A stretch of DNA of 64,000 nt from contig NC_015391.1 in assembly GCF_000195575.1 (NCBI RefSeq), forward strand, positions 470,501 to 534,500, read 5' to 3'. Both the position numbers and the translations under genes were made by a program. Positions 13,496-53,158 of this stretch are shown here, piece after piece (within the stretch, counting starts at the first letter, position 1; each line of letters begins with the position of its first letter). The notes beneath the pieces are model-generated. The model did not search any database. It was given only the letters and a program-made list of their open reading frames with translations, and was not told the DNA's origin. Source of the stretch: Carnobacterium sp. 17-4 (GTDB lineage Bacteria > Bacillota > Bacilli > Lactobacillales > Carnobacteriaceae).

Positions 13496-15271
13496 ATGAA
13501 TAAAAGGGTAAGAAGGTCGCTTAGTATAGGGGTAGCATTTTTGTTTAGTATGGCTTTTGGCGAAACGGTTTTTGCGGAAAATCAATTATCGGATATGAGA
13601 ATCGAAATCGAACTGCAAGAAGATGGATCGGGGATTGTTACAGAACATAGAAAGATGAACATGGATGATGGTACTGAATTGTACATCGTGTTAGATGATC
13701 TGCAGGATTCAAAATTGCTTGATTTTTCAGTAGCCGGTTATCAAGAGTTGGAACCATGGAATCCAGACGCTTCACTAGAGGAAAAGGCAGGTCAATACGG
13801 TACTGTAGGAACAGATGATGGGGTAGAACTTATATGGGGTATAGGTGAGTATGGAGAAAACGACTACGAAGTAACGTATACCATATCAAACTTAGTTCGC
13901 GAATTGGAAGATGGACAAGGACTGCTATGGAACTTTGATACGTTTTCCGATATTCCAGCTGAAAATTTGACGGTTGAAATTACTGGATTTGAACCCTTTA
14001 CAGAAGATAATGTCCGTTTCTGGGGCTTTGGTTTTGAAGGGGATATGCAATTAGAGGGCAACACGATCGTTTGGGAAGCTGAGGAAGAAGTAGACGACAG
14101 CAACGATGTAACAATATTGCTGCAATTTCCTCAAGGAATGTTCACTACACAAGCCAGTGCAGGTATGACTTTGGAAGAACAGCGTGACATGGCCATGAAC
14201 GGCTCAGCGTACAATGATGAGCCTATTTCTAACACGATACCTATCGTTATTTTTTCTGTCCTAGCAGTCGCTGTTGGTGGAATCACAACATTTATTATCA
14301 AATATGTTAAGAAATTACATCAAGCGAGAGAAGAAGCTGGACAAATGAGTACTGGATTACAAAGAATCAAGGAGAATAAAGAAGTTATATTAGAAGAAAT
14401 TCCTTATAAAGGAGAAGACTTTGCAGGCATTGCATTTTTATTGCAAGACATGAACAAAGGTTATTTTGAAGATTACTTTTCAGCTTACTTGCTGAGATGG
14501 TCTTATGAAGAACGTATCCTTATCCACACAGCTGAAACCAAATCATTATTTAGCGAGAAATTTGATACGGAAATAGAAATAATTCATTTTGAGGAAGAAC
14601 GGACACGTTACCCTCAATCGTTCAGTGACTTTATTGCTCATTTAGAGACTAATGATGAAACGTATGAAACTGGATTATGGTTGATGTTATTGGATGCTGC
14701 AAATAATAGTGGTTTTGTTAAAGACGAGGATATGAAAAAATGGGCAAGGAAACATGCCAAAGAAGTAGGCAAGTTTGCAGATTATTTGATTGACTACTCA
14801 AAAGAGTATTTAGAAAGAGAAGGCCTTATTTCTTTTGGGAAAGTTGATGTATGGGGTGCAAAACATGAGGTATCTGTTGCCAGTCCTGAAGGCGACGAAC
14901 TGTTTGATCGTTTGGTTCAATTTGATAACTATTTAGAAGAAATTGACTTAAAAGGTTTTGCGGACAACACCAATCCATTTACATTTGAAGAATTTCTATT
15001 CTGGAATACCTTGTACTTTAGAAGTGAGGAAATCACAGATGAATTTAAGGAAATGATTCCGAATCCGAATGATGTCTCTGGAGACAACTCCTTCATCTAT
15101 TATTATTGGTATTGGAACGGCATGACTGGATTTAGAAACAACTGGTCTAGTGGATTAGCAAGTGGTGGATTTAACTCAAGTGCTTCATCAGCAGCATCCG
15201 GAACAGGTGGATCAACTTCCTTTGGTGGAGGTGGAGGTGCCGGTGGTGGAGGCGGCGGAGGGGCTCGATAG
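13496..15271 (+). CDS. DUF2207-family membrane protein with glycine-rich tail
   Basis: 591 residues. A signal peptide (about 1-27, ending FAEN), an exported beta-rich DUF2207 domain to about 240, one clear membrane span (TIPIVIFSVLAVAVGGITTF, about 247-270), then a cytoplasmic domain of about 300 residues and a C-terminal tail of Ser/Ala and uninterrupted Gly ending GGAR. These features are typical of the DUF2207 family, whose function is not established. Monocistronic; the ribosome-binding site is GGGGGAAG. The downstream terminator stem begins inside the Gly-tail codons. Confidence 0.85.
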   Translation: MNKRVRRSLSIGVAFLFSMAFGETVFAENQLSDMRIEIELQEDGSGIVTEHRKMNMDDGTELYIVLDDLQDSKLLDFSVAGYQELEPWNPDASLEEKAGQYGTVGTDDGVELIWGIGEYGENDYEVTYTISNLVRELEDGQGLLWNFDTFSDIPAENLTVEITGFEPFTEDNVRFWGFGFEGDMQLEGNTIVWEAEEEVDDSNDVTILLQFPQGMFTTQASAGMTLEEQRDMAMNGSAYNDEPISNTIPIVIFSVLAVAVGGITTFIIKYVKKLHQAREEAGQMSTGLQRIKENKEVILEEIPYKGEDFAGIAFLLQDMNKGYFEDYFSAYLLRWSYEERILIHTAETKSLFSEKFDTEIEIIHFEEERTRYPQSFSDFIAHLETNDETYETGLWLMLLDAANNSGFVKDEDMKKWARKHAKEVGKFADYLIDYSKEYLEREGLISFGKVDVWGAKHEVSVASPEGDELFDRLVQFDNYLEEIDLKGFADNTNPFTFEEFLFWNTLYFRSEEITDEFKEMIPNPNDVSGDNSFIYYYWYWNGMTGFRNNWSSGLASGGFNSSASSAASGTGGSTSFGGGGGAGGGGGGGAR

Positions 15272-37732: not shown

Positions 37733-38446
37733 ATGGAAATAACAGAAACAGAGATGCGTGATTATATTTTGGAAAAAATTATTCGCCATGAATTTCCAAC
37801 AAATAAAAAGTTGCCAAGTGAAAATGAATTAGCAGATTATTTTGGGACGACTCGTAACAGAATTAGAAAAGTTTACCAAATGTTGGAAGCTATGGGCTAT
37901 ATCACTTCAAAACAAGGAATCGGTCATTTTCCACGTGAAAAAGGCCCCACTATCGAACTTGCATTGCGAGGAGATATCAGCTTTTCAGAAAAGATGAAAC
38001 AGCAAGGTATAGCGTATCAATCGATCAATATCCATTGTCTTCCGATTCAATTGAACGAAAGTGACGATCGTCAGCAGCTGTTTTCTAATGAAGGCCAAGT
38101 GTATGAAATTTGTCGGTTGCGCATCGTTCATGGTAAACCAGCAGCATTGCACTACTCTTATGTGTCTACTGAGACATTCCCGAATATTGCAGAAGATGGG
38201 AAAAAAATTACTTCAATATTCAATTATTATTTTAAAAAGGGGTTCTCGAATTTTACAAGTAGCGGTTCTGAGTTAAGTATTTCATTTCCGCAATTAGAGG
38301 AACAAAGATTGCTCAAATGCGGAGAATTAGTACCCTTATTAATAATGAAAAGTGATTGTCGAGATAAAAAAACTGACAAACTCCTTGAAATAACTAAAAT
38401 TATTTATCGGAGTGATTTGTTTAAATATAAAATTGAAATAGATTAA
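37733..38446 (+). CDS. phnF: GntR-family regulator of the phosphonate locus (PhnF-like)
   Basis: 237 residues: an N-terminal winged helix-turn-helix (residues about 5-72, KLPSENELADYFGTTRNRIR) and a C-terminal UTRA ligand-binding domain (about 90-235). This HutC/PhnF-type architecture and the position immediately before the C-P lyase genes make it the probable repressor of the phn operons. Its own terminator separates it from phnG. The ligand is not visible from sequence. Confidence 0.8.
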   Translation: MEITETEMRDYILEKIIRHEFPTNKKLPSENELADYFGTTRNRIRKVYQMLEAMGYITSKQGIGHFPREKGPTIELALRGDISFSEKMKQQGIAYQSINIHCLPIQLNESDDRQQLFSNEGQVYEICRLRIVHGKPAALHYSYVSTETFPNIAEDGKKITSIFNYYFKKGFSNFTSSGSELSISFPQLEEQRLLKCGELVPLLIMKSDCRDKKTDKLLEITKIIYRSDLFKYKIEID

Positions 38447-38684: not shown

Positions 38685-39107
38685 ATGAATAGAAAAAGAA
38701 GGACACGCATTTTAATCGATTTTGGAAAAGAAGAGTCACTCAAGTTAGCTGAAATAATTGAAAATAATTATCCCATTGAAATGATTTCTGAACCAAGCGA
38801 GGCATTGACTATGATCAAGGTGAGAGAGTCAGCCAAAAATTCACTCTTTTATTTAGGCGAAGTGCTAATTACAGAAACAAAAGTACGCATTGAAGGTAAA
38901 GTTGGAATCGGTATTGTAAAAGGCCATGAAACAAAATTTTCCAGAGCGTTAGCAATCATCGATGCGGCATACAGTGCTGAATTGCCAGAAACAGCTGAGT
39001 GGTTCAGAATCTTGAAAGATATAGAGACAACAGGTGAAGAAGCCGTTGGAGAGAAACAAAGACAACTAGCTCAAACAAAAGTAAATTTCGAAACAATGAA
39101 TCAATAG
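38685..39107 (+). CDS. phnG: C-P lyase core subunit PhnG
   Basis: 140 residues. Has the PhnG pattern: MIKVRESAKNSLFYLGEVLITETKV (read in two halves) followed by GIGIVKGHE and RALAIIDAAYSA. PhnG is part of the PhnGHIJ core complex that, with PhnI, couples ATP to the phosphonate to give ribose methylphosphonate triphosphate. First gene of the structural operon, with AGGGGGCG as ribosome-binding site, 9 bases before phnH. Other phn genes continue without a gap. Confidence 0.9.
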   Translation: MNRKRRTRILIDFGKEESLKLAEIIENNYPIEMISEPSEALTMIKVRESAKNSLFYLGEVLITETKVRIEGKVGIGIVKGHETKFSRALAIIDAAYSAELPETAEWFRILKDIETTGEEAVGEKQRQLAQTKVNFETMNQ

Positions 39108-39116
39108 GAGGATAAC

Positions 39117-39692
39117 ATGCAAAACAAAGTGAAGGATACGCAAAGAGTTTTCCGAAATATTTTGGATAGTTTATCTCGTCCAGGAAAAATCGTTGAATTG
39201 GGAACGACATTTGACTATCAGACAAGTCTTTTGGATGAAACAATGGATATCTTGATGACTTTATTAGACGGTGAAGTGACATTTCATTTAGTAGGTGAAG
39301 AACCAACAGCTATTGAAGAAATAAAAATTCGAACGTTAGCTACTTTCGTACCACTTATTGAAGCAGATTATATTATTCTGCCAGATGGAACAAATCAAGA
39401 TTATTTGATTAATGTTTTTCAGCAAGCTAAGAAAGGGACTTTAATGGATCCCAATCGTAGTGCAACAGTAATTATCGAAACAGAAAACCTAACAACTAGT
39501 GAAAAATATACATTAAGTGGACCAGGCGTGAATGGTAGTCGTGAAGTAGCTATTCCCACTGCTGAGTTTTGGATTGAGGCACGTAATGAAGCAATAAGCG
39601 AGTTTCCTCTAGGTGTTGACTGTTTTATCATTGACCAATTTGGACAATGTATGGGTCTGCCACGAACAACAAAAATGAGAGAGGTGCGCTAA
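39117..39692 (+). CDS. phnH: C-P lyase core subunit PhnH
   Basis: 191 residues with the family beginning RVFRNILDSLSRPGKIVEL and the C-terminal GPGVNGSREVAIPTAEFW and FPLGVDCFIID. PhnH is the dimer-forming subunit at the centre of the PhnGHIJ core complex. Its stop codon abuts the phnI start (TAA-ATG), so translation is coupled. Confidence 0.92.
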   Translation: MQNKVKDTQRVFRNILDSLSRPGKIVELGTTFDYQTSLLDETMDILMTLLDGEVTFHLVGEEPTAIEEIKIRTLATFVPLIEADYIILPDGTNQDYLINVFQQAKKGTLMDPNRSATVIIETENLTTSEKYTLSGPGVNGSREVAIPTAEFWIEARNEAISEFPLGVDCFIIDQFGQCMGLPRTTKMREVR

Positions 39693-40799
39693 ATGGGTTA
39701 TGTAGCAGTAAAAGGTGGACAAAAAGCCATTGAACGTTCCAATCTAGCATTGGATTACGACCGAATCAAAGATGGAAGAGTTTTAGATGTTGCTGATATC
39801 TTGGCAGGAATGCGACCTTTAGTCGATCAAGTCATGTCAGAAAGCAGTCTTTATGACGAAGAGCTGGCTGCATTGGCCATAAAACAAGCAAGTGGGAGTA
39901 TGGAGGAAGCTGTATTTTTAATGCGTGCCCACCGTTCAACTTTAGCAAGACTTTATTACACAAATACGACCAGCACAAAATCCATGTTCGTTGAACGACG
40001 CATTTCAGCTTCGTTTAAAGACATTCCAGGAGGGCAATTGCTAGGAAGTGCTAGTGATTTCAAGCAACGCTTCTTAGATTTTGATTTGCTGAATGAAACC
40101 CAAGAGCAGGTGCGAGAGACAGCTGAAAACTTCGAAAAAAAAGAATTTGATGCTCCAGTGATGAATTTACGGCAGCTTCCGAAAGTCATAGATTATCTGG
40201 AAGAAGAAGGATTGTATACTTCGCAACCACTAAACGACCGTGAACCTGATGATATTACCAAAAGCAGTATTCAATTCCCTACATCACGCAGCCAACGTCT
40301 ACAATCTTTGACTCGTGGCCAAACAGGGGCAGTTACCTCTTTAGGATATGCAGGAATTCGTGGTTACGGAGTAGCGTCACACCCAAATATCGGAGAATTA
40401 CGGGTTGGCGAATTGCCTCTCCATGTTTCTGATGCCCGTCATCCTGATGAAGAGGACCAAGCTTATTATATCGGTTCAATTATTACGACTGAAGTGGAAT
40501 CTTTTCTTCCTATTGATGTCACAGATAAAGATGGCAAAACGACGCAAAGTTTTGCGGTAGGCTATGGCCTGACATTCGGTCAAAATGAAACAAAAACAAT
40601 TGCAATGAGTGTTCTGGACTATTCGTTGGAGCATCCAGTAGATGGCTACCCAACTTCCGATGAAGAATTTGTGCTACTGCATGTGGATTCTGTCGAATCA
40701 ACTGGGTTCATCTCACATCTGAAGTTGCCGCATTACGTTACCTTCCAATCATTGCTGGATGGAATCCGAGAAATTAAAAAAGGAGGAACAGCAGAATGA
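39693..40799 (+). CDS. phnI: C-P lyase core subunit PhnI
   Basis: 368 residues, normal length. It contains the metal-binding pair His342-x4-His347 (ISHLKLPHYVTFQ), equal to E. coli His328 and His333 at the PhnI/PhnJ interface, and GYVAVKGGQKAIERS at the N-terminus. PhnI is the purine-ribonucleosidase that attaches the phosphonate to ATP ribose. The intact metal site indicates that this complex is under selection. It overlaps phnJ by 4 bases. Confidence 0.93.
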   Translation: MGYVAVKGGQKAIERSNLALDYDRIKDGRVLDVADILAGMRPLVDQVMSESSLYDEELAALAIKQASGSMEEAVFLMRAHRSTLARLYYTNTTSTKSMFVERRISASFKDIPGGQLLGSASDFKQRFLDFDLLNETQEQVRETAENFEKKEFDAPVMNLRQLPKVIDYLEEEGLYTSQPLNDREPDDITKSSIQFPTSRSQRLQSLTRGQTGAVTSLGYAGIRGYGVASHPNIGELRVGELPLHVSDARHPDEEDQAYYIGSIITTEVESFLPIDVTDKDGKTTQSFAVGYGLTFGQNETKTIAMSVLDYSLEHPVDGYPTSDEEFVLLHVDSVESTGFISHLKLPHYVTFQSLLDGIREIKKGGTAE

Positions 40800-41665
40800 A
40801 TTACCAAGGAAATTATGCTTTCCTCGATGAAAATTCAAAAAAAGAAATCCGTCGAACGATCTTGAAAGCTGTTGCTATTCCAGGTTATCAAGTGCCGTTT
40901 GCTTCTCGTGAGTTGCCAATTGCACGTGGTTGGGGAACAGGTGGGCTGCAAGTTAGTCTGTCGCTAGTTGGGGAAGAGGACGTTGTGAAAGTTATTGACC
41001 AAGGATCTGACGAAAGTGTCAATGCGGTCAACATTAAGAAGATGATTACGGATACAACTGGTGTGGATACAACAATCCATACGATTGAATCAACTATTAT
41101 CCAATCTCGCCACCGAATCCCTGAAGTACCTCTTACAGAAGAACAAATTTTAGTACTACAAGTTCCGCTTCCTGAACCACTGAGATTGATTGAGCCATCT
41201 GAGCGGAAGACGAAAGAAATGCACGCGTATGGAGAATACAGTGTTTCCTGGTTACACATCTTTGAACAAATTGTTCGTTATGGTAAAGCGTCAATGCAAT
41301 CGGATTATCCGGTTATCGTCAATGGTCATTATCTTATGGCGCCAAGTCCAATCCCGCGTTTCGATAATCCTAAAATGAATCAGAATGAGGGACTTATTCT
41401 ACTGGGAGCAGGTCGTGAGAAGAAAATCTACGCCGTTCCGCCTTATACAGATGTCGTTTCAATCGACTTCGAAGATTACCCATTTGAAACGGAAAGTTTC
41501 TCTGGAGCCGCATGTCGGATGACTGGTTTGACAGATGTTTTCCTTGATGAATTACAGGATGAAAAAACTGGAGAAAGCTATTATTTGACCAATGATCAGT
41601 CTTACATGTTGGAAGTCTTAAATGAACAACAAAACACAGTCACAGGAGGGGGCACACATGAATAA
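40796..41665 (+). CDS. phnJ: C-P lyase PhnJ homologue lacking three of four Fe-S/thiyl cysteines
   Basis: 289 residues and collinear with E. coli PhnJ (IPGYQVPF, RGWGTGGLQ, RHRIPEVPLT, DPSPIP-like APSPIPRFDNPKM, GAGREKKIYAVPP, LDE). In E. coli CX2CX21CX5C (Cys241, 244, 266, 272) holds the 4Fe-4S cluster and the thiyl-radical Cys272. Here the positions are Cys240, Thr243, Thr265 and Met271, with the same 2, 21 and 5 spacing and no other cysteine in the protein. So canonical radical-SAM C-P cleavage looks impossible as known. The reading frame is otherwise intact. Overlaps phnI by 4 and phnK by 8 bases. Confidence 0.9.
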   Translation: MNYQGNYAFLDENSKKEIRRTILKAVAIPGYQVPFASRELPIARGWGTGGLQVSLSLVGEEDVVKVIDQGSDESVNAVNIKKMITDTTGVDTTIHTIESTIIQSRHRIPEVPLTEEQILVLQVPLPEPLRLIEPSERKTKEMHAYGEYSVSWLHIFEQIVRYGKASMQSDYPVIVNGHYLMAPSPIPRFDNPKMNQNEGLILLGAGREKKIYAVPPYTDVVSIDFEDYPFETESFSGAACRMTGLTDVFLDELQDEKTGESYYLTNDQSYMLEVLNEQQNTVTGGGTHE

Positions 41666-42497
41666 TGAAGCGCCAGTGTTATCCGTTCGCAACATGAACA
41701 AACAGTTCGGTAAAGGCTGCATGACTTGTCAAGGACACCCTGAAAATCTTGAAATGAACTATTGTCCAAGTTGCGGGACCGTCTACGCTTGTCGAGATAT
41801 TTCTTTTGATCTTTATAAAGGTGAAATCATCGGCATCGTTGGCGAAAGTGGATCTGGAAAATCAACATTGATGAAGTCGCTCCATTTTGATATGGACGTA
41901 ACAAGTGGAGAATATCTATTGGCTGATTATAAAGAAGGCGCACAAAATGTCTTCGAAGTATCTTTACAACACCAAAAATGGATTCGCAATATGTTGCTGG
42001 GAATGGTCTATCAGAATCCGATTCTAGGGTTGCGGATGGAATTTTCTTCCATTGCCAATATTGCTGAAAAAATGATTGCCGCAGACCACAGGAATGTTGA
42101 AGCCATGTTTGATAGAGGACATGAGTTGCTCAATAAAGTAAATATTCCAACATTTCGTTCTAAAGAAGCCCCAGAAAATTTTTCGGGTGGTATGCAACAA
42201 AGAGTTCAAATTGCTAAAGCACTTTCGAACAATCCGCCAGTATTGTTGTTAGATGAAGTGACGACGGGTCTCGATTTGAGTGTGCAAGCGGATGTCTTAG
42301 ACTTGATCAAGACCATTCAGCGAGAGCTGCAAATTAGTATGATTGTCGTTTCGCATGATTTATCCGTTATACGCATGCTTTCTGATAGGACCATCGTGAT
42401 GTACAATGGTGAAATTATTGAAGAAGGGCTGACAGATCAGATCTTGGAAGACCCACAGCATGCCTATACGCAACAACTCGTCTATTCATTAATTTAG
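41658..42497 (+). CDS. phnK: C-P lyase ABC-type ATPase PhnK with cysteine-rich insert
   Basis: 279 residues from the ATG at 41658 (AGGAGGGGG upstream; the longer reading lies inside phnJ). Walker A GESGSGKST (62-70), signature FSGGMQQR, Walker B LLLDEVTTGLDL, switch SHDLS. An insert before the ATPase core, relative to E. coli PhnK, carries Cys21-x2-Cys24-x11-Cys36-x2-Cys39-x5-Cys45 ahead of RDISFDLYKGE. It could bind zinc or an iron-sulfur cluster. PhnK docks on PhnJ in the known complex, so the insert sits where PhnJ has lost its own cysteines (inference). Confidence 0.9.
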   Translation: MNNEAPVLSVRNMNKQFGKGCMTCQGHPENLEMNYCPSCGTVYACRDISFDLYKGEIIGIVGESGSGKSTLMKSLHFDMDVTSGEYLLADYKEGAQNVFEVSLQHQKWIRNMLLGMVYQNPILGLRMEFSSIANIAEKMIAADHRNVEAMFDRGHELLNKVNIPTFRSKEAPENFSGGMQQRVQIAKALSNNPPVLLLDEVTTGLDLSVQADVLDLIKTIQRELQISMIVVSHDLSVIRMLSDRTIVMYNGEIIEEGLTDQILEDPQHAYTQQLVYSLI

Positions 42498-42554: not shown

Positions 42555-43733
42555 ATGTTCATTATCATAAATGGAGTAATCGTATTAGAGGAGTCATTAT
42601 TGGAAGACGCTGCAATCGTGGTTGAAGGAGATACCATCAAAAAAATCATGTCTATGGATGAAGTAGAGAGTTATGGTCCGGAATATCATATTCTGGATGC
42701 AGATGGAGGCTTTATTGCACCAGGGTTCGTGGACATTCATTCTGATTATATTGAGACGATCGTCTCGCCTCGTCCGACTGCGATGATGGATTTCGACATG
42801 GGGTTGCGCGAAAGCGAACGGATTCTAATTACACATGGAGTAACAACGATGTTCCATTCGCTTTCTTTATATAAAGGAGAAGATTTTGGAGCGAAACTCA
42901 TTCGCCAACCCAAACACGCGAACCGTTTAATCGAAGCAATCAATGATACACATAGTAAAGATCATCTTATCCGTCATCGTGTCCATGCTCGTTTTGAAAT
43001 TGATAATTTTGAAATGGTAGAACAAGTGAAAGAGCATATTAAAAATGGCAAGATTCACCTCATTTCTTTCATGGATCATACCCCTGGCCAAGGGCAGTAT
43101 CGCAATTTAGAAATATTCAAAAAAACAATTGCTGGCTATCAAGATATGACGGATGCAGAAGCAGAAACCATCATTGTGAAACATCAGGGCAAAGAAAAGA
43201 TTGCTTTTGATAAAATAGCTGAGATTGCTGAGGTAGCCGTAATAAATGGTATAGCAGTTGCTTCTCACGATGATGATTCAATCGGAAAGTTGGATATCGT
43301 CCAACGACTAGGTACAACAATCAGTGAATTTCCAACTACATTGGAAGTGGCAGTTGCCGCTCACAATGCAGGCTTATGGACCCTCGCTGGTGCACCAAAT
43401 ATTTTATTAGGCGGTTCGCATACAGGAAACCTCAGTGCTGCAGAAGGTATCCAACAAGGATATATTTCGATTCTATGCAGCGACTACTACCCATCAGCTT
43501 TGATTCATGCCATTTTTATCATGCACCAAAAATATGGCGTCAACCTAGTGGATATGTTTCGCATGTTGACCATTAATCCAGCAAAAGCTGTGAAGTTGGA
43601 TCATGAGATTGGCTCTATCAAAGAAGGTAAAAAAGCTGATTTATTACTGATTAAAGTAAAAGATGACTATCCCGCTATTAAATCCGTTATGGTTGATGGG
43701 AAAATCATCTACAGAACAGAGTATCGCCAATGA
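42555..43733 (+). CDS. phnM: Alpha-D-ribose 1-methylphosphonate 5-triphosphate diphosphatase PhnM
   Basis: 392 residues, amidohydrolase fold. Metal-binding [13 protein letters not shown] (the N-terminal His), [19 protein letters not shown] and the C-terminal [15 protein letters not shown] are typical of PhnM. It removes pyrophosphate from the ribose methylphosphonate triphosphate made by the core complex, upstream of the PhnJ step. It is 57 bases after phnK and overlaps the acyltransferase gene by 4 bases. Confidence 0.92.
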
Positions 43734-44353
43734 TTACCAACAAAAAAAGATTGACCCAAGAACCAACAATTGATCCTACAGCAAAAATGAAAAATGTTAC
43801 ATTTGGCATCTTTAATGAAATTGGAGAGCTAAATTCCATCGAAAATAGTCATTTCGACGACTATTCTTATACTGGTCAGTTTTGTTTCGTTCAAAATGCT
43901 CAAATTGGAAAGTTTGCGAATATTGCTGCAGCTGTCCGTATTGGACCAACTGATCATCCTTATGAACGTGCTTCATTGCATCACTTTACTTACCGGCCTG
44001 AAATGTATGGTTTTGCAGAAAGTGCTGAACAATCTTTTTTAGAACGCCGAGCTGACCGTATTACGACAATTGGACATGACACTTGGATCGGTCACGGCAC
44101 GATCATTATGCCAGAAGTTACGATTGGCAACGGGGCAATCATTGGAGCTGGAGCGATTGTAACAAAAGACATTCCTCCTTATGCAATTGCTGTTGGCGTT
44201 CCTGCAAAAGTGGTGAAATACCGTTTTGAACCAGAAATAATCAACGCACTTGAACATATTCAGTGGTGGGATTGGACACCGGAAGCGATCAAAGAACGGT
44301 TTGAGGATTTTAGAGAACCAATTGTAGATTTTGTGGAAAAATACAAAAAGTAG
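43730..44353 (+). CDS. Phosphonate-locus hexapeptide-repeat acyltransferase
   Basis: 207 residues forming a left-handed beta-helix (hexapeptide repeats: [63 protein letters not shown]), with the catalytic His near [12 protein letters not shown]. It belongs to the chloramphenicol-acetyltransferase-like/phn-linked transferase group found in many C-P lyase operons. The probable role is acetylation of an aminophosphonate or of a toxic intermediate, as PhnO does with a different fold; not proven. Coupled to phnM. Confidence 0.85.
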
Positions 44354-44381: not shown

Positions 44382-45086
44382 ATGACCAATAAAATCATTG
44401 AAATACACCAATTGGAGAAAACCTTTACGACACATCATCTAGATAAGACGATGACTGCTGTTGAAGGAATCTCTTTCAGCCTGGAAAAAGGAGGTTTTGT
44501 AGGAGTTGTCGGTAAGAGTGGAAGTGGTAAGTCAACTATCATCAAATGCATTTATAGAACGTATCTACCTCAAAACGGACAGATCTTTTATGATTCAGAA
44601 TCTTTCGGGAAAATTGATTTAGCATCAGCGTCAGAACGTGAAATTATCCAATTGCGTAAAAATGAAATTGGCTATGTTTCTCAATTTTTAAGTGTTATGC
44701 CGCGAACGACTACATTGGAATTAGTCGAGCAGAGTCTCTTAGAAACAGGAGTGGACCAAGCGACAGCAACAAAACGTGCAAAAGAAGCACTGCAGCATTT
44801 TGATATCGCTGAAGAACTCTGGGACAGTTATCCAGTCACATTTTCTGGTGGTGAAAAATTACGGTTGAACATCGCTCGAGCAACAGTGAAAAATCCACGT
44901 TTACTGCTTTTGGATGAACCAACTGCCAGTCTTGATAACGAATCAAAGCAAAAAGTTCGTGAAGTTATCCAAAAATTGAAAAATGAAGGTACGACTATGA
45001 TCGGTATTTTTCACGATTTAGAATTCATGGATGGTTTGTGTGATTACACTTACCACATGCAAGACCGGAGAATGGAGATGAACTAA
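44382..45086 (+). CDS. phnL: C-P lyase accessory ATPase PhnL
   Basis: 234 residues, ABC ATPase without membrane domain. Walker A GKSGSGKST (about 39-47), signature FSGGEKLRLN, Walker B LLLLDEPTASLD, switch IFHDLE. The YVSQFLSVMPRTTTLE segment is PhnL-typical. PhnL binds PhnK on the core complex in E. coli. AGGAGGAAG upstream; the next gene (PHP) begins directly after its stop. Confidence 0.92.
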   Translation: MTNKIIEIHQLEKTFTTHHLDKTMTAVEGISFSLEKGGFVGVVGKSGSGKSTIIKCIYRTYLPQNGQIFYDSESFGKIDLASASEREIIQLRKNEIGYVSQFLSVMPRTTTLELVEQSLLETGVDQATATKRAKEALQHFDIAEELWDSYPVTFSGGEKLRLNIARATVKNPRLLLLDEPTASLDNESKQKVREVIQKLKNEGTTMIGIFHDLEFMDGLCDYTYHMQDRRMEMN

Positions 45087-45899
45087 ATGAAAGCAGACTT
45101 ACATGTTCATAGTGAATTTTCGGATGGTTATGACAGTATTGAAACAGTTTTAGATTTAGCGCAACAAAATGGCATTGAGATGATTAGTTTTGTTGATCAT
45201 GATACAACGGCTACTTACCCTGCAGCGAAAGAAGCTGGAGAAAAGCGTGGAATAACCGTTGTTCCAGGTATTGAAATATCCTCTTATGATTTCAAACGTA
45301 GTCGAAAAGTGCATATTCTAGGGTATAACTATCGGTACCCCACGCATCATATCAATGAATTATGCAATGAATTATTAGAAAGAAGAAACAATCATTCTTG
45401 GCTACAATTAGAGACTCTTATTGACAATGGCTATGAGGTTCATACCAGCAAGCTGAAAAAATCAAAGGATGATTTTTCGACACTTTACAAGCAGCATATT
45501 ATGGAATCATTGACTAATGAGGCATATGAATCAGCTGAATATAAAACACTCTACCAAAAGCTTTTTAAAAGAGACGGCATCTGTGCAGGAGATATTGAAT
45601 ATATTGATGCTATCTTGGCTGTCCGTGCGATCAAGGCAGATGGCGGATTCCCGGTTCTTGCGCACCCGGGACAACTTGATTCATATGATATTGTGCCTAA
45701 ACTGGTTGAAAATGGCTTGGCAGGAATTGAAATTTATCATCCAGACCATACTGAAGAAGATCACAAAAAAGTGCGCGAAATAGCTAAAGAATTCAACTTG
45801 TTTTTGACCGGAGGATCCGATTACCATGGGAACTATTGGATTCCAATAACTGTCGGACAATGTTTAACACCAGAAAGAAGTCTTCTTCATTTAAAGTAA
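45087..45899 (+). CDS. PHP-domain phosphoesterase (cyclic phosphate dihydrolase-like)
   Basis: 270 residues, PHP fold with metal ligands visible: DLHVHSEFSDG (His6, His8, Asp13), FVDHD, PGIEIS, HILGY, AHPGQ and GGSDYHG. In Eggerthella lenta a phn-linked PHP enzyme hydrolyses both ester bonds of 5-phosphoribosyl 1,2-cyclic phosphate. Position between phnL and phnD and the absence of phnP and phnN here suggest the same role: turning the PhnJ product into ribose 5-phosphate and phosphate. The exact substrate is inferred. Its stop is followed by about 110 bases and the phnD promoter. Confidence 0.82.
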   Translation: MKADLHVHSEFSDGYDSIETVLDLAQQNGIEMISFVDHDTTATYPAAKEAGEKRGITVVPGIEISSYDFKRSRKVHILGYNYRYPTHHINELCNELLERRNNHSWLQLETLIDNGYEVHTSKLKKSKDDFSTLYKQHIMESLTNEAYESAEYKTLYQKLFKRDGICAGDIEYIDAILAVRAIKADGGFPVLAHPGQLDSYDIVPKLVENGLAGIEIYHPDHTEEDHKKVREIAKEFNLFLTGGSDYHGNYWIPITVGQCLTPERSLLHLK

Positions 45900-45979: not shown

Positions 45980-46009
45980 AGAAAAAACAATAAAAATTTG
46001 GAGGCTATC

Positions 46010-47068
46010 ATGAAAAACGTATTTTCAAAATTCGCAGTATTATCAATGAGTGCATTAGTATTAGCAGCATGTGGAAACAGTGGTTCAGCGACAACAGATT
46101 CAGGAACAGCATCAACTGAAGACTACTCAGACAAACTCACGATGGTATGGTACCCAAATGAATCAGGAAGCGATATGGAAAAATCCCGTGAAGTGATCGG
46201 CAATTACATTGAAGAAGCAACAGGCAAAGAAGTGGAGCATCAATTGACAACGGATTATGCTATTGCAATTGAAGCTATCGCAAGTGGACAAGCGAACTTA
46301 GCCTTTATGGGAGCTCAAGGTTACGTAGAAGCTAACGAAAAAAATGAAAATGTTCTTCCACTAGTTGTTCCATCTGGTGAATCTGGAACATTAGAAGATG
46401 CTATTTATTACAGCTGGATCAACGTTAAAAAAGGCAACGAAGATCAATACAGTGATGGCAATGGAGGCTATTCCATTGAAAACATTAAAGACAAACGTTT
46501 CTCATTTGTCTCAAATTCATCGACATCTGGATTTGTTGTGCCAACGTCGGGTATCGTTGAAGCTTTCCCAGATGAAAATCTGACACAAGAAGCTTTAATG
46601 GAAGGTGGAGAAGATAAGTTTTTCAGCGAAGTTCTATTTGGAGGATCTCACCAAGGTTCAGCTGTTAATTTAATAAGTGACCGCGCAGATGTTGCAGCAT
46701 TCTGTGACACTTGTGTAGCGAATTATGTAGAACCGGTTGAAGGAGAACAAAATGAAGTTGGAACAACGTATGCAGTAAGAGAAGATGCAGCAGATCCATT
46801 TAGTGGATTAGCAGGCCAAAAATTTGTCTCAATTGCTGTTACACCTGTTTTGAACGCTCCAATGGTAATCAACAATGATGTAACTTCACCAGAAGATCAA
46901 GCTGCATTGAAAGAAATCTTCACAAGTGAAGAAATGAATAATGATTCCGGAATCTGGAAAGATCCAGAATCTGAAGATAGTGCTTTGTTTGAAAAAGAAG
47001 GAGACTCACAATTCATCCCTGCAGAAGATGCTTGGTTTGATCCAATCCGCGAATTATCAGAAAACTAA
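46010..47068 (+). CDS. phnD: Phosphonate ABC transporter substrate-binding lipoprotein PhnD
   Basis: 352 residues from the ATG at 46010; the TTG at 45998 lies inside the ribosome-binding site TTGGAGGC. Lipobox LVLAAC (Cys about 21). PhnD-type ligand-binding elements MVWYPNESGSD, IASGQANLAFMGAQGYV, FVSNSSTSGFVVPT (phosphate-clamping Ser/Thr) and GSHQGSAVNL are present. It captures phosphonates outside the cell for PhnC/PhnE. Starts the import half of the locus. Confidence 0.92.
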   Translation: MKNVFSKFAVLSMSALVLAACGNSGSATTDSGTASTEDYSDKLTMVWYPNESGSDMEKSREVIGNYIEEATGKEVEHQLTTDYAIAIEAIASGQANLAFMGAQGYVEANEKNENVLPLVVPSGESGTLEDAIYYSWINVKKGNEDQYSDGNGGYSIENIKDKRFSFVSNSSTSGFVVPTSGIVEAFPDENLTQEALMEGGEDKFFSEVLFGGSHQGSAVNLISDRADVAAFCDTCVANYVEPVEGEQNEVGTTYAVREDAADPFSGLAGQKFVSIAVTPVLNAPMVINNDVTSPEDQAALKEIFTSEEMNNDSGIWKDPESEDSALFEKEGDSQFIPAEDAWFDPIRELSEN

Positions 47069-47096: not shown

Positions 47097-47870
47097 ATGA
47101 CCTTGCTAGAATTGACTGATGTATCTAAAGAGTATGTAAAAGGCAAGAAAGCATTGTCTGACGTCGACTTCTCAGTTGAAAAGGGAGAATTTATTTCAAT
47201 CATTGGGAAATCTGGCGCTGGGAAATCAACTCTCCTTCGCTGTATCAACCGTATGATTGAACCGTCCGATGGCATGATCAAGTTCGATGGTGTCGATACT
47301 GAAAAATTGAACAAAAAAAAATTGCGTGAATTAAGAAGACAAATAGGGATGATCTTTCAGCATTACAACTTAGTGAATCGATTAAGCGTTTTAGATAATA
47401 CAAGTCATGGACGACTTGGTTATACTGGTACGTTAAAAGGAATGTTTGGCATTTTTACAAATGAAGACAAAGAAAAAGCCATAACCATCTTAGATAAACT
47501 GGGACTTGAAGATCAAATTCATCAGCGCTGTGATCAACTGTCCGGTGGGCAAAAACAGCGGGTCGGTATTGCTCGCGCCTTGATTCAAAATCCTAAAATG
47601 ATCCTGTGTGATGAACCAATTGCTTCACTAGATCCAAGTTCTTCACGTGTTATCATGGAATATTTAAAAAATATCAATGAGACAATGGGAATCACCGTTA
47701 TTTGTAATCTTCACCAAGTAGATGTTGCGATGGCTTATTCAAAACGGATCATCGGTATGAGTAATGGCGAAGTTGTCTTCGATGGAACACCGGATCAATT
47801 AACACATGAAAAAGTTCACGAGATTTACGGTAGTGAAGCAGGAGAACTTATCACAGACATATCTGTTTAA
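47097..47870 (+). CDS. phnC: Phosphonate ABC transporter ATPase PhnC
   Basis: 257 residues. Walker A GKSGAGKST (about 38-46), LSGGQKQRVGIARAL, Walker B MILCDEPIASLDP, switch NLHQV. The QHYNLVNRLSVLDNTSHGRLG segment is characteristic of PhnC. It drives uptake by the two PhnE permeases. AAAAGGAG upstream; 28 bases after phnD and 15 before phnE. Confidence 0.94.
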   Translation: MTLLELTDVSKEYVKGKKALSDVDFSVEKGEFISIIGKSGAGKSTLLRCINRMIEPSDGMIKFDGVDTEKLNKKKLRELRRQIGMIFQHYNLVNRLSVLDNTSHGRLGYTGTLKGMFGIFTNEDKEKAITILDKLGLEDQIHQRCDQLSGGQKQRVGIARALIQNPKMILCDEPIASLDPSSSRVIMEYLKNINETMGITVICNLHQVDVAMAYSKRIIGMSNGEVVFDGTPDQLTHEKVHEIYGSEAGELITDISV

Positions 47871-47885
47871 GAAAAGGAGGATTAG

Positions 47886-48677
47886 ATGGAATTAACAACA
47901 AAAAGACCACAACCACGAGGATGGAAAACAACTATTACTTTCTTGATCCTTTTACTATTGGCTGTTGGTGCGACTATCCTGCTGGAATTCAATTATAGTG
48001 AAGCATTATTCGCCTTTCCCAATGCGGCAATGTGGATCATTCAAAATTTCTATCCAAATGCTGAGGCTTGGCTGAAGTTACCCAATATTGTAGAGAAATT
48101 AGTTGAGACTGTTTTGATGGCCATTGCTTCTGCTACAACAGCTAGTTTCTTTGCCTATATTTTCGCACTTTTCGGGGCTGAAGCGACGAAATTCAACTCT
48201 TTTCTTTCTTGGGCATCTAAGTTATTTGCCTCTTTTTTCCGAAACGTACCAGATATCGTTTGGTCGATGATTTTTCTCTTCTCATTTGGTATGAGCATTA
48301 TGACCGGATTTTTAGCTTTGTTTTTTGTAACATTTGGAATGATGAATCGTGCTTTTATTGAAACAATTGATGAAACATCCAGTGAATCTGTTGAAGCATT
48401 GACCGCAACTGGTGCAAACTGGTGGCAGATCGTCGGACAAGCCATCTTTCCCAATAGCATTTCTGGGGTTATTTCCTGGGTACTGTACAGTATTGAAAAT
48501 AATATTCGTAGTGCAACCTTGATTGGTATGCTTACAGGATCAGGAATTGGACACATCTTCAATCTCTATTATAAGAATCTTGATTATCATTCGTGTAGCT
48601 TGGTCGTCTTATGCATCATGGTAGTCGTACTGGTATTGGAAGGTATTTCCAATAGAGTAAGGAGGTCTATTCTATGA
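47886..48677 (+). CDS. phnE: Phosphonate ABC transporter permease PhnE (first)
   Basis: 263 residues with six predicted spans and the EAA loop VEALTATGANWWQIVGQAIFPNS typical of PhnE (quoted in short form as ALTATGANWWQ). The motif SFFRNVPDIVWSMIFLFSFG lines the channel. It forms a heterodimer with the second PhnE, whose gene starts 4 bases inside this one. Confidence 0.9.
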   Translation: MELTTKRPQPRGWKTTITFLILLLLAVGATILLEFNYSEALFAFPNAAMWIIQNFYPNAEAWLKLPNIVEKLVETVLMAIASATTASFFAYIFALFGAEATKFNSFLSWASKLFASFFRNVPDIVWSMIFLFSFGMSIMTGFLALFFVTFGMMNRAFIETIDETSSESVEALTATGANWWQIVGQAIFPNSISGVISWVLYSIENNIRSATLIGMLTGSGIGHIFNLYYKNLDYHSCSLVVLCIMVVVLVLEGISNRVRRSIL

Positions 48678-49546
48678 GTGAACGAGAGCTGCCACTAACG
48701 TTGAAAGATATAGAAGAAAAAAGAAAGGCTAAGTCAAAAGATTCATCTACTCAAAAAGTACAGAACCAAATGCATCCGATGCGCAATGTTTGGATTGTAT
48801 TAATTTTATTAGTACTCACTAGTATTTACGCATTCATGAGTTTTGACTACGGCAACATCAATTGGAGCGAAGCAATCGCTACGACCTTTGCGAATTTGAA
48901 AATCATTTTCTTGGAGGCAGATCTGACAACGATAACTCTTGGTGAAGCATTGATCCAAGTGTTGATCACTTTCGCGATTGCCTTCTTGACTACTTTATTT
49001 TCCGCTATTGTGTCGTTTTTCTTAGGATTATTTGCCGCTAAGAATCTTGGTGGGGGGAAAACGTCTACTATTATTAAAACCTTTGTGGCCCTTATTCGGT
49101 CCATTCCAACCGTAATGTGGGTTCTTATTTTTGCGATTGTTGCTGGATTAGGAAGTGTCGCAGCAGTAATCGGTATCTCATTCCACTCGTTAGGGTACCT
49201 GACAAAAATGTTCTCTGAGACATTTGAAGACATGGATGAAGGTGTCACTGAAGCGTTGAAAGCAACTGGAGCAAGTTGGTGGCAAATTATCTTTCAAGGT
49301 GTATTGCCAAGTACGATTCGTTCGTTAAGTGCATGGACATTCATGCGACTTGAGATCAATTACATCATAGCTTTGGGAATGGGAGCAGCTGCTGGAGCCG
49401 GAGGAATTGGTTTTAATCTGTTTATGTCTGGTAATTTCTATTACAACATGCATGAAGTAGGAGCAATTACATTCTTGATTCTCATTACTTGTGTCTTGTT
49501 GGAAGCTATTTCGGTAAAAGTTAAGAGAAGTTTAGTAACGAAGTAA
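48674..49546 (+). CDS. phnE: Phosphonate ABC transporter permease PhnE (second)
   Basis: 290 residues. A 40-residue hydrophilic N-terminus precedes six spans; RSIPTVMWVLIFAIVAGLGS and the EAA loop TEALKATGASWWQIIFQGVL are conserved with the first PhnE. The two paralogues differ in length and N-terminus, as in other Firmicutes PhnE pairs. Ends 21 bases before the thioredoxin-like gene. Confidence 0.9.
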   Translation: MSERELPLTLKDIEEKRKAKSKDSSTQKVQNQMHPMRNVWIVLILLVLTSIYAFMSFDYGNINWSEAIATTFANLKIIFLEADLTTITLGEALIQVLITFAIAFLTTLFSAIVSFFLGLFAAKNLGGGKTSTIIKTFVALIRSIPTVMWVLIFAIVAGLGSVAAVIGISFHSLGYLTKMFSETFEDMDEGVTEALKATGASWWQIIFQGVLPSTIRSLSAWTFMRLEINYIIALGMGAAAGAGGIGFNLFMSGNFYYNMHEVGAITFLILITCVLLEAISVKVKRSLVTK

Positions 49547-49567: not shown

Positions 49568-49969
49568 ATGAAAAAATACATGAAATGGTTGCTTGTATTT
49601 GGAGCACTTCTTGTTGTGTCTGGCTTAACTTATTTATCTGGTGATAGTTATAAAAGTGTGAATAATACTGATGACTACGAGGAAGTGATGGAACAAGATA
49701 CCGCCTATATTTACTTTGGTCGGGAAACGTGTAAGTATTGCAAAGCTTTCGAACCACTTTTGGAAAACGCCATAAATGATACGAGTGCAACCGTTTATTA
49801 CTATGACACCGATGAACACAATGGATCTGAGGATTTTCAAGACATCTTAGATGAGAATGAAGTTGTGACCGTTCCTAAATTAGTTAAGTTAGAAATGGGT
49901 GAAGTAGTCGATTATGTAGATCATACAGATTCTCAAGAATCAATTACAACACTATTGACTGCTAAATAA
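49568..49969 (+). CDS. Membrane-anchored thioredoxin-like protein
   Basis: 133 residues. An N-terminal hydrophobic anchor (KYMKWLLVFGALLVVSGLTY) and an extracytoplasmic thioredoxin fold with Cys-Lys-Tyr-Cys near 56-59 (YIYFGRETCKYCKAF), plus a cis-Pro at VTVPKLV. Similar to bacteriocin-accessory/PedC-type thiol proteins. It is placed 21 bases after phnE with AAGGAG, so it is probably part of the phosphonate transcript; a role in disulfide upkeep of surface proteins is the plain guess. Confidence 0.7.
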   Translation: MKKYMKWLLVFGALLVVSGLTYLSGDSYKSVNNTDDYEEVMEQDTAYIYFGRETCKYCKAFEPLLENAINDTSATVYYYDTDEHNGSEDFQDILDENEVVTVPKLVKLEMGEVVDYVDHTDSQESITTLLTAK

Positions 49970-52495: not shown

Positions 52496-53158
52496 TTAGA
52501 TTGTTTCTGAATCTTTCAATCTGTAGGCACCATGGAAAATAGGTCCAACAAATTCATTAAAACGAAAGCCATGCTCAATAGCAGCGGTAACAAAGTCCTT
52601 AGCCTTGAAGATAGCTTCTTTTTCGGATAGCCCAGTTGCTAGTCCAGCTGTGATTGCAGCAGCAAAAGTGCACCCAGCTCCATGGTTGTAAGCAGGATGG
52701 ATTTTTTTTGTTTCAAGGGTGGTTAATTTTCCTAGTCCTGAAAAGATACCAGCTTCAATAAGATTTGGAGTTGCCACATCCGCAAGAGGCAATAGATATT
52801 TTTGAATGGCTTCTGCCGTTTCGGGATTTAATAATTCGTCTTCTCCTTTACATGCTAGAACAGGGTCAATAACAACTTTAGGGAAGTGATAAGCAGAAAT
52901 TGTGTTGTCTACAAGTTCAACAATTTCCACTGAACCAAGCATACTTGTTTTCATAGCGGCAATTTTAGTATCTCCTGCCAGAATAGTTTTTAATTGTTCT
53001 TCCACAACTGAAATTGGCAGAGTAGTAACATTATGCTTCCAATCATTATCCGGATCCATGGTAGCAATAGTAGTCAAAGCTACCATGCCATAAGTGCTAT
53101 ATTCTGAGAAGGTTTTTAGGTCTGCCGCTAGTCCAGCACCGCCGCTGGCATCGCTGCC
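52496..53158 (-). pseudogene. Decayed pyridoxine/HMP kinase (PdxK/ThiD-like)
   Basis: The minus frame reads GSDASGGAGLAADLKTFSEY (beginning about 53158), then GMVALTTIATMDPDNDW, a sugar-kinase core, and NHGAGCTFAAAITAGLA before the stop at 52496. Two lesions are evident: the first 10 or so codons with the start are gone, and about 45 codons are missing between SGLGKLTTLE and YNHGAGCT, where intact ThiD/PdxK has the ATP-binding lobe. The remainder has no frameshift. Upstream of the truncation the DNA is M20 peptidase sequence on the other strand. Confidence 0.75.

Follow-up and report, generated by a model that had tools for sequence, protein, structure and literature searches.

A clade of C-P lyase operons in Bacilli appears to have given up the proposed 4Fe-4S/Cys272 site of PhnJ while nearly everything else in the complex is retained. 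At the four positions that in E. coli PhnJ are Cys241, Cys244, Cys266, and Cys272, phnJ of the window, the stretch of 64,000 nucleotides from Carnobacterium sp. 17-4 that was analyzed here, encodes Cys240, Thr243, Thr265, and Met271. In total, 45 such Cys-poor PhnJ proteins were found, from at least five families of Bacilli. Judging from these sequences, we see an evenly balanced case for a C-P lyase complex that still works although its PhnJ can form neither the proposed cluster nor the Cys272 radical. This reading was favored because in all 45 proteins the Cys272 equivalent and one or more of the three cluster ligands are missing, but the residues of the product pocket and the glycine that carries the radical in the E. 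coli model are kept. Counted against it was that the cluster model from E. coli is impossible with the residues of Cys-poor PhnJ.

The window PhnJ has an altered cluster motif

According to the accessible text of PMC7916636, the model for E. coli PhnJ places a 4Fe-4S cluster on Cys241, Cys244, and Cys266, with SAM making a radical on Gly32 and Cys272 attacking the phosphorus; the accessible text of PMC9947105 names all four cysteines as the putative cluster site. The first-pass annotation of the window had claimed that three of these cysteines are lost at a retained spacing of 2, 21, and 5 residues, with no other Cys in the protein. This was confirmed from the codons, the translation, and a phmmer alignment to E. 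coli PhnJ (4xb6 chain D; E value of 7.6e-96), in which the four motif columns are in register. The window protein reads C-x2-T-x21-T-x5-M and does not match the CX2CX21CX5C of radical-SAM C-P lyase PhnJ, and Cys240 is its sole Cys. Apart from the replacement of Cys244, Cys266, and Cys272 by Thr, Thr, and Met, it differs from E. coli PhnJ in changed knuckle neighbors and in a Phe at Tyr158, the latter as in four-Cys Bacillota. Like PhnJ of the E. coli Phn(GHIJ)2 core (4xb6, 7z15-7z19), which it matches over residues 6-272 by sequence, it keeps the equivalents of Gly32, Arg107, His108, and Gln124, together with the PhnI His pair and the operon partners. It is a full-length member of its family, matching PF06007 with 440 bits (cut-off of 25) over positions 4-273 of 275. 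No second PhnJ was found by a search of the genome from which the window comes (2.69 Mb, two contigs).

The phn operon of the window is complete

All of phnGHIJKLM are present in the window, in the order G-H-I-J-K-M-(transferase)-L, with PhnK named by a best hit below its cut-off (Table 1). The first-pass annotation had described the remainder of the complex, including the PhnI His pair, as intact, and this was confirmed, with His342 and His347 of PhnI kept.

Table 1. Genes of the phn operon and codons of the altered PhnJ motif, in positions of the window
Feature	Position	Strand	Basis
phnF-like GntR/UTRA regulator	37733..38446	+	Pfam GntR and UTRA; position shared with most relatives compared
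phnG	38685..39107	+	TIGR03293, above cut-off
phnH	39117..39692	+	TIGR03292, above cut-off
phnI, HxKxPH zinc-site pair His342 and His347	39693..40799	+	PF05861, E 5.6e-126
phnJ, Cys-poor variant	40796..41665	+	PF06007, 440 bits; phmmer to 4xb6 chain D
Altered cluster motif (Cys240, Thr243, Thr265, Met271)	41513..41608	+	codons and alignment read
Cys240 codon TGT	41513-41515	+	
Thr243 codon ACT	41522-41524	+	
Thr265 codon ACC	41588-41590	+	
Met271 codon ATG	41606-41608	+	
phnK, Cys4 insert (Cys21, 24, 36, 39)	41658..42497	+	TIGR02323 best hit, below its cut-off; insert aligned
phnM	42555..43733	+	TIGR02318, above cut-off
Hexapeptide-repeat transferase of phosphonate operons	43730..44353	+	TIGR03308, above cut-off
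phnL	44382..45086	+	TIGR02324, above cut-off
PHP-domain phosphoesterase	45087..45899	+	NF041661, E 1.6e-91, below its cut-off
phnD, substrate-binding lipoprotein	45998..47068	+	PF12974
phnC, transporter ATPase	47097..47870	+	operon position; match to annotated phnC of L002
phnE, first permease	47886..48677	+	operon position; match to annotated permease of L002
phnE, second permease	48674..49546	+	operon position; match to annotated permease of L002

The PHP-domain phosphoesterase likely acts on the phosphoribosyl cyclic phosphate, as suggested by its NCBIfam match below cut-off, and 15 His/Asp/Glu columns were invariant across 26 aligned copies. After the second phnE lies a thioredoxin-like protein with a CXXC motif (49568-49969), for which, among the loci compared, matches were found in L004 and L087 only. 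Further downstream, an ORF of 196 aa on the minus strand (52496-53086) encodes a phosphomethylpyrimidine/pyridoxine kinase; the Pfam profile matched it only from position 23 and in two stretches, and it may be truncated or missing an internal segment. Phosphate-starvation boxes gave 48 matches, compared to 61 expected by chance. A period-11 repeat upstream of phnD scored 18, with 20 shuffles reaching maxima of 17-20, and some relatives score 19-21 for this repeat near their phn genes, the shuffles having been run for the window only.

Cys-poor PhnJ is spread across Bacilli

A first survey of 132 PhnJ rows gave 121 with C,C,C,C at the four motif positions, 9 Cys-poor ones, and 2 fragments in which the motif is incomplete. 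A second survey, which targeted groups with Cys-poor PhnJ already seen, added 45 loci (36 Cys-poor and 9 four-Cys). Across the 45 Cys-poor proteins, position 240 was invariably Cys, position 243 was Thr (24) or Ser (21), position 265 was Thr (24), Cys (18), or one each of Val, Met, and Ala, and position 271 was Met (41) or Leu (4). The closest relative of the window PhnJ, that of Trichococcus paludicola (L004), is 85% identical and the same variant, with the motif C,T,T,L differing from the window at position 271 only; the genes and order of its operon are also shared. A PhnJ from a Bacillota metagenome genome, 78% identical to that of the window, reads C,T,V,M, while the remaining 78 of the 80 loci in this search of relatives, at most 71% identical, were C,C,C,C.

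Wider searches covered the order, the class, the phylum, and two further groups. In the phylum draw, PhnJ was found in 21 of 398 genomes, and every full motif read besides that of the window was four-Cys; the class draw gave PhnJ in 25 of 398 genomes, 5 of them Cys-poor, including the window. Within the window's own order, one of the four PhnJ found was four-Cys (L089), and all 20 PhnJ found in 157 genomes of the order around genome G937 were Cys-poor. In family f12, 54 of 261 genomes had PhnJ, and the 34 that were read (leaving out G1253 and a fragment in G399) comprised 20 Cys-poor and 14 four-Cys proteins, a Cys-poor share that is biased upward because the reads were mostly best matches to the window. 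In G1253 (C2:180992-181809), the phnJ matches are split over two separate open frames, and the gene may be broken there. Named-contig and genome rows were not fully de-duplicated in these counts, and L004 and G398 appear to represent the same genome.

Among 17 other genomes of the window's family, including 5 of its genus, there was no match to PhnJ; the operon is therefore patchy and may have been acquired. Both kinds of PhnJ coexist inside genus code g367, four-Cys in L115/G1003 and Cys-poor in L162-L164, L167, L170, L171, L175, and L178, and one kind of operon may therefore displace the other through transfer. In each of the remaining Cys-poor whole genomes searched, there was one PhnJ match and no second, normal PhnJ, with the L005 genome left out and G398 only 63% complete. 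No paper on PhnJ without these cysteines was recognized by title or abstract in the open literature, subscription papers being mostly outside this coverage.

The pocket, the zinc site, and the partner proteins are kept

In the phmmer alignment, Gly30 of the window PhnJ corresponds to Gly32 of E. coli, Gly45-Thr48 to the 47-50 loop, and Arg105, His106, and Gln122 to Arg107, His108, and Gln124. All of these were present in 45/45 Cys-poor PhnJ. In the accessible text of PMC9947105, the 47-50 loop, Arg107, His108, and Gln124 of E. coli PhnJ touch a ligand modeled as the cyclic phosphate product. Equivalents of the core zinc site (PhnI His328/His333 and PhnJ His108 of E. coli) were also present; the HxKxPH pair of PhnI was found in all 45 Cys-poor loci, and both His were seen in 9/9 Cys-poor and 19/19 four-Cys operons that were aligned. 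The nine Cys-poor loci that were read contain phnF, G, H, I, J, K, M, L, D, C, and two permeases, with phnF located ~5 kb away from phnG in L139. Eight of them have the PHP phosphoesterase; the ninth, L088, has an operon without a PHP match and a calcineurin-like phosphoesterase at 14053-14874. From what is kept, we infer that phosphorus is still released from the C-P bond in the Cys-poor clade. The sequences leave room for a C-P lyase with neither an iron-sulfur cluster in PhnJ nor Cys272, for which we argue tentatively; the radical-SAM assignment would then not be universal, or the chemistry would take place at the PhnI-PhnJ zinc site.

The same pattern, in which the radical residues are gone and those of the scaffold and pocket are kept, would also suit a complex that has been repurposed, with PhnJ serving as scaffold, as PhnK-binding subunit, and as half of the PhnI-PhnJ pocket, for a substrate whose bond needs no radical. 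This fits with the PhnK site, which sits on PhnJ in E. coli (accessible text of PMC9947105), and with the ATPase motifs of PhnK and PhnL, including the Walker B acids, which were intact in 9/9 Cys-poor operons. We nevertheless consider repurposing less likely than a working C-P lyase, given that the operons retain the transporter and the core order phnG-H-I-J-K-M, that a phosphoesterase gene is found in 9/9 loci as in four-Cys operons, that no new enzyme common to the operons of the clade was seen, and that Gly30 is invariant. Among Cys-poor and four-Cys operons alike, however, the transporter, PHP, and transferase genes are not always found at the same place. One observation counts against a working C-P lyase complex: at the position of E. 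coli Glu149, the nine Cys-poor operons have Glu (6), Asp (2), or Ala (1; L140), compared to Glu in 19/19 four-Cys operons, and PhnK binding may therefore differ in some Cys-poor members. In E. coli, this residue contacts PhnK, and its change to Ala abolished growth on phosphonates, as reported in the accessible text of PMC9947105.

No clear substitute for the lost cluster site

No clear substitute cofactor or cysteine for the lost PhnJ site was found. Twelve operon proteins were compared between 9 operons with Cys-poor and 19 with four-Cys PhnJ, using columns in which Cys reaches at least 60% in one group or the other; L088 and L012 contributed no PHP protein, and L011 neither phnD nor the permeases. 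There was no clear gain of compensating Cys columns except in PhnC, where one column was gained (8/9 Cys-poor vs 5/19 four-Cys); several Cys columns were lost.

A radical could also be supplied in trans if PhnJ had become a glycyl-radical-type subunit, using Gly30 and Cys240 and activated by a radical-SAM activase. Both residues are present in all 45 Cys-poor PhnJ. A pyruvate formate-lyase activase is encoded in the genome of the window, and the genomes without it have weaker radical-SAM matches, among which there may be another activase. However, this activase was above cut-off in just 4/7 Cys-poor and 3/10 four-Cys genomes, the other 10 of the 17 having weaker radical-SAM matches only, and it was rejected as a general partner. 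The canonical radical-SAM motif CX3CX2C was absent from ORFs of at least 150 aa in the window and 8 other operon loci. The geometry of the E. coli protein is a further point against this split, which we regard as improbable: Gly32 lies ~30 Å from Cys272, a distance called confusing in the accessible text of PMC7916636, and the cluster site is placed ~30 Å from the radical glycine in that of PMC9947105.

PhnK carries a Cys4 insert (CX2C...CX2C), located in the window at 41718-41800 (residues 21-45), before the Walker A region. Readable non-Bacillota PhnK appear to be without it, with a few rows misread. The first-pass annotation had suggested that a Cys-rich PhnK always travels with the Cys-poor PhnJ. 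This pairing was indeed seen in 45/45 Cys-poor operons (43 by pattern and 2 by eye), with all four Cys kept in 9/9 aligned, but it did not stand as a mark of the clade, since the same insert is present in 19/19 four-Cys Bacillota. As it is also found in two deep-branching four-Cys operons, L158 and L160, the insert probably predates the loss. Given that four-Cys PhnJ operons carry it as well, it does not qualify as a specific replacement, and it was rejected as a clade-specific partner of Cys-poor PhnJ. There is thus only a slim chance that the insert carries the cluster or metal that PhnJ lost, and its spacing resembles that of a zinc ribbon.

The Cys-poor operons form a clade under purifying selection

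A tree of six proteins (PhnG, I, J, K, M, and L; 35 rows and 1694 columns, with the four motif columns excluded and with long rows for L089, L158, and L088) joined the nine Cys-poor operons tested with a support of 99/98; the first-pass annotation had raised the question of whether PhnJ of the Thr/Thr/Met type forms a clade. An earlier tree with partly different controls gave the same clade (97/100). In a tree of PhnJ only, two Cys-poor groups were placed within an unresolved polytomy, and a single clade was not rejected (AU p 0.292). The trees were made without L112 (incomplete) and L131 (in-frame stop, read as two pieces).

The two operons that keep Cys265 branch first within the Cys-poor clade of the six-protein tree, and Cys243 and Cys271 were therefore most likely lost earlier and Cys265 later; the persistence of Cys265 in 18/45 proteins likewise argues for a stepwise loss. 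The f12 rows L169 and L174 are C,T,T,M among mainly C,T,C,M relatives, and column 265 needs at least 5 changes among the Cys-poor rows of the PhnJ tree, so that more than one loss of Cys265 is probable. Together, the sequences most likely reflect one origin of the Cys-poor operons with stepwise loss.

The dN/dS of phnJ was 0.027 for the Cys-poor pair of T. paludicola (L004) and L087, which have the same genus code, and 0.044 for the Cys-poor f12 pair L141 and L142, whose synonymous distance of 2.1 is near saturation, while four pairs of four-Cys phnJ gave 0.098, 0.052, 0.080, and 0.053. Synonymous sites were saturated in the other Cys-poor pairs tried, leaving these two for the estimate. Across 80 four-Cys PhnJ, conservation reached at least 98% in 90 columns; 80 of these columns were unchanged in all five Cys-poor proteins compared, and the ten that varied were the three Cys and positions 5, 40, 54, 99, 226, 228, and 231. 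Seven columns separated the 45 Cys-poor from 66 four-Cys Bacillota PhnJ, and five of these (242, 243, 245, 264, and 271) sit at the metal knuckle, where Cys-poor proteins have Thr or Ser (243), Met or Leu (271), and in most cases Leu (245) and a hydrophobic residue (264). With these residues, the knuckle of the C-terminal domain looks rebuilt to stand metal-free. Cys240 is encoded by TGC in 27 and TGT in 18 of the 45 and stays unchanged throughout the tree. By itself, this conservation is unremarkable, because Cys240 is one of 117 unchanged columns among 279.

Recent inactivation or a sequencing error is hardly credible: the loss is clear, the nearest four-Cys relatives of the window PhnJ being ~70% identical, but it is shared by 45 proteins from many assemblies, dN/dS is low in the two measurable pairs, the operons are complete in 9/9 read, and there are no stops among the Cys-poor phnJ matches listed (the sole listed stop is in L131, a four-Cys row). 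Recent decay was rejected by dN/dS, the single clade in the six-protein tree, and the 45-protein spread. The first-pass annotation had already considered decay a poor explanation and had argued against a single sequencing error, and both views are borne out by a variant that makes up a diverse clade under purifying selection.

Discussion

The four-Cys operons of Bacilli that were compared, from a Mesobacillus foraminis plasmid, Cytobacillus, Neobacillus, and Paenibacillus, share with the window the core genes, the PhnK Cys4 insert, and a PhnJ that is ~64-71% identical. Unlike the window, they keep all four Cys, and their PHP and transferase genes are often upstream of phnF. If the Cys-poor complex is a working C-P lyase, phosphonates would be imported and then coupled to ribose by PhnGHI with PhnL, PhnM would trim the triphosphate, the phosphorus would be freed at the PhnI-PhnJ zinc site, and the PHP enzyme would finish the product. 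As a first guess, the zinc-site chemistry would involve Gly30, and possibly Cys240, and would be initiated from a radical source external to PhnJ. The accessible text of PMC9947105 describes the C-P lyase mechanism as an unresolved conundrum, although more than 35 years have passed since the discovery.

In dozens of genomes, the proposed cluster site has been removed and the rest of the complex kept. If the Cys-poor operons work, the cluster model will have to be revised; if they break no C-P bonds, the complex has another, new job. Either outcome would affect surveys in which phnJ is used to indicate phosphonate breakdown.
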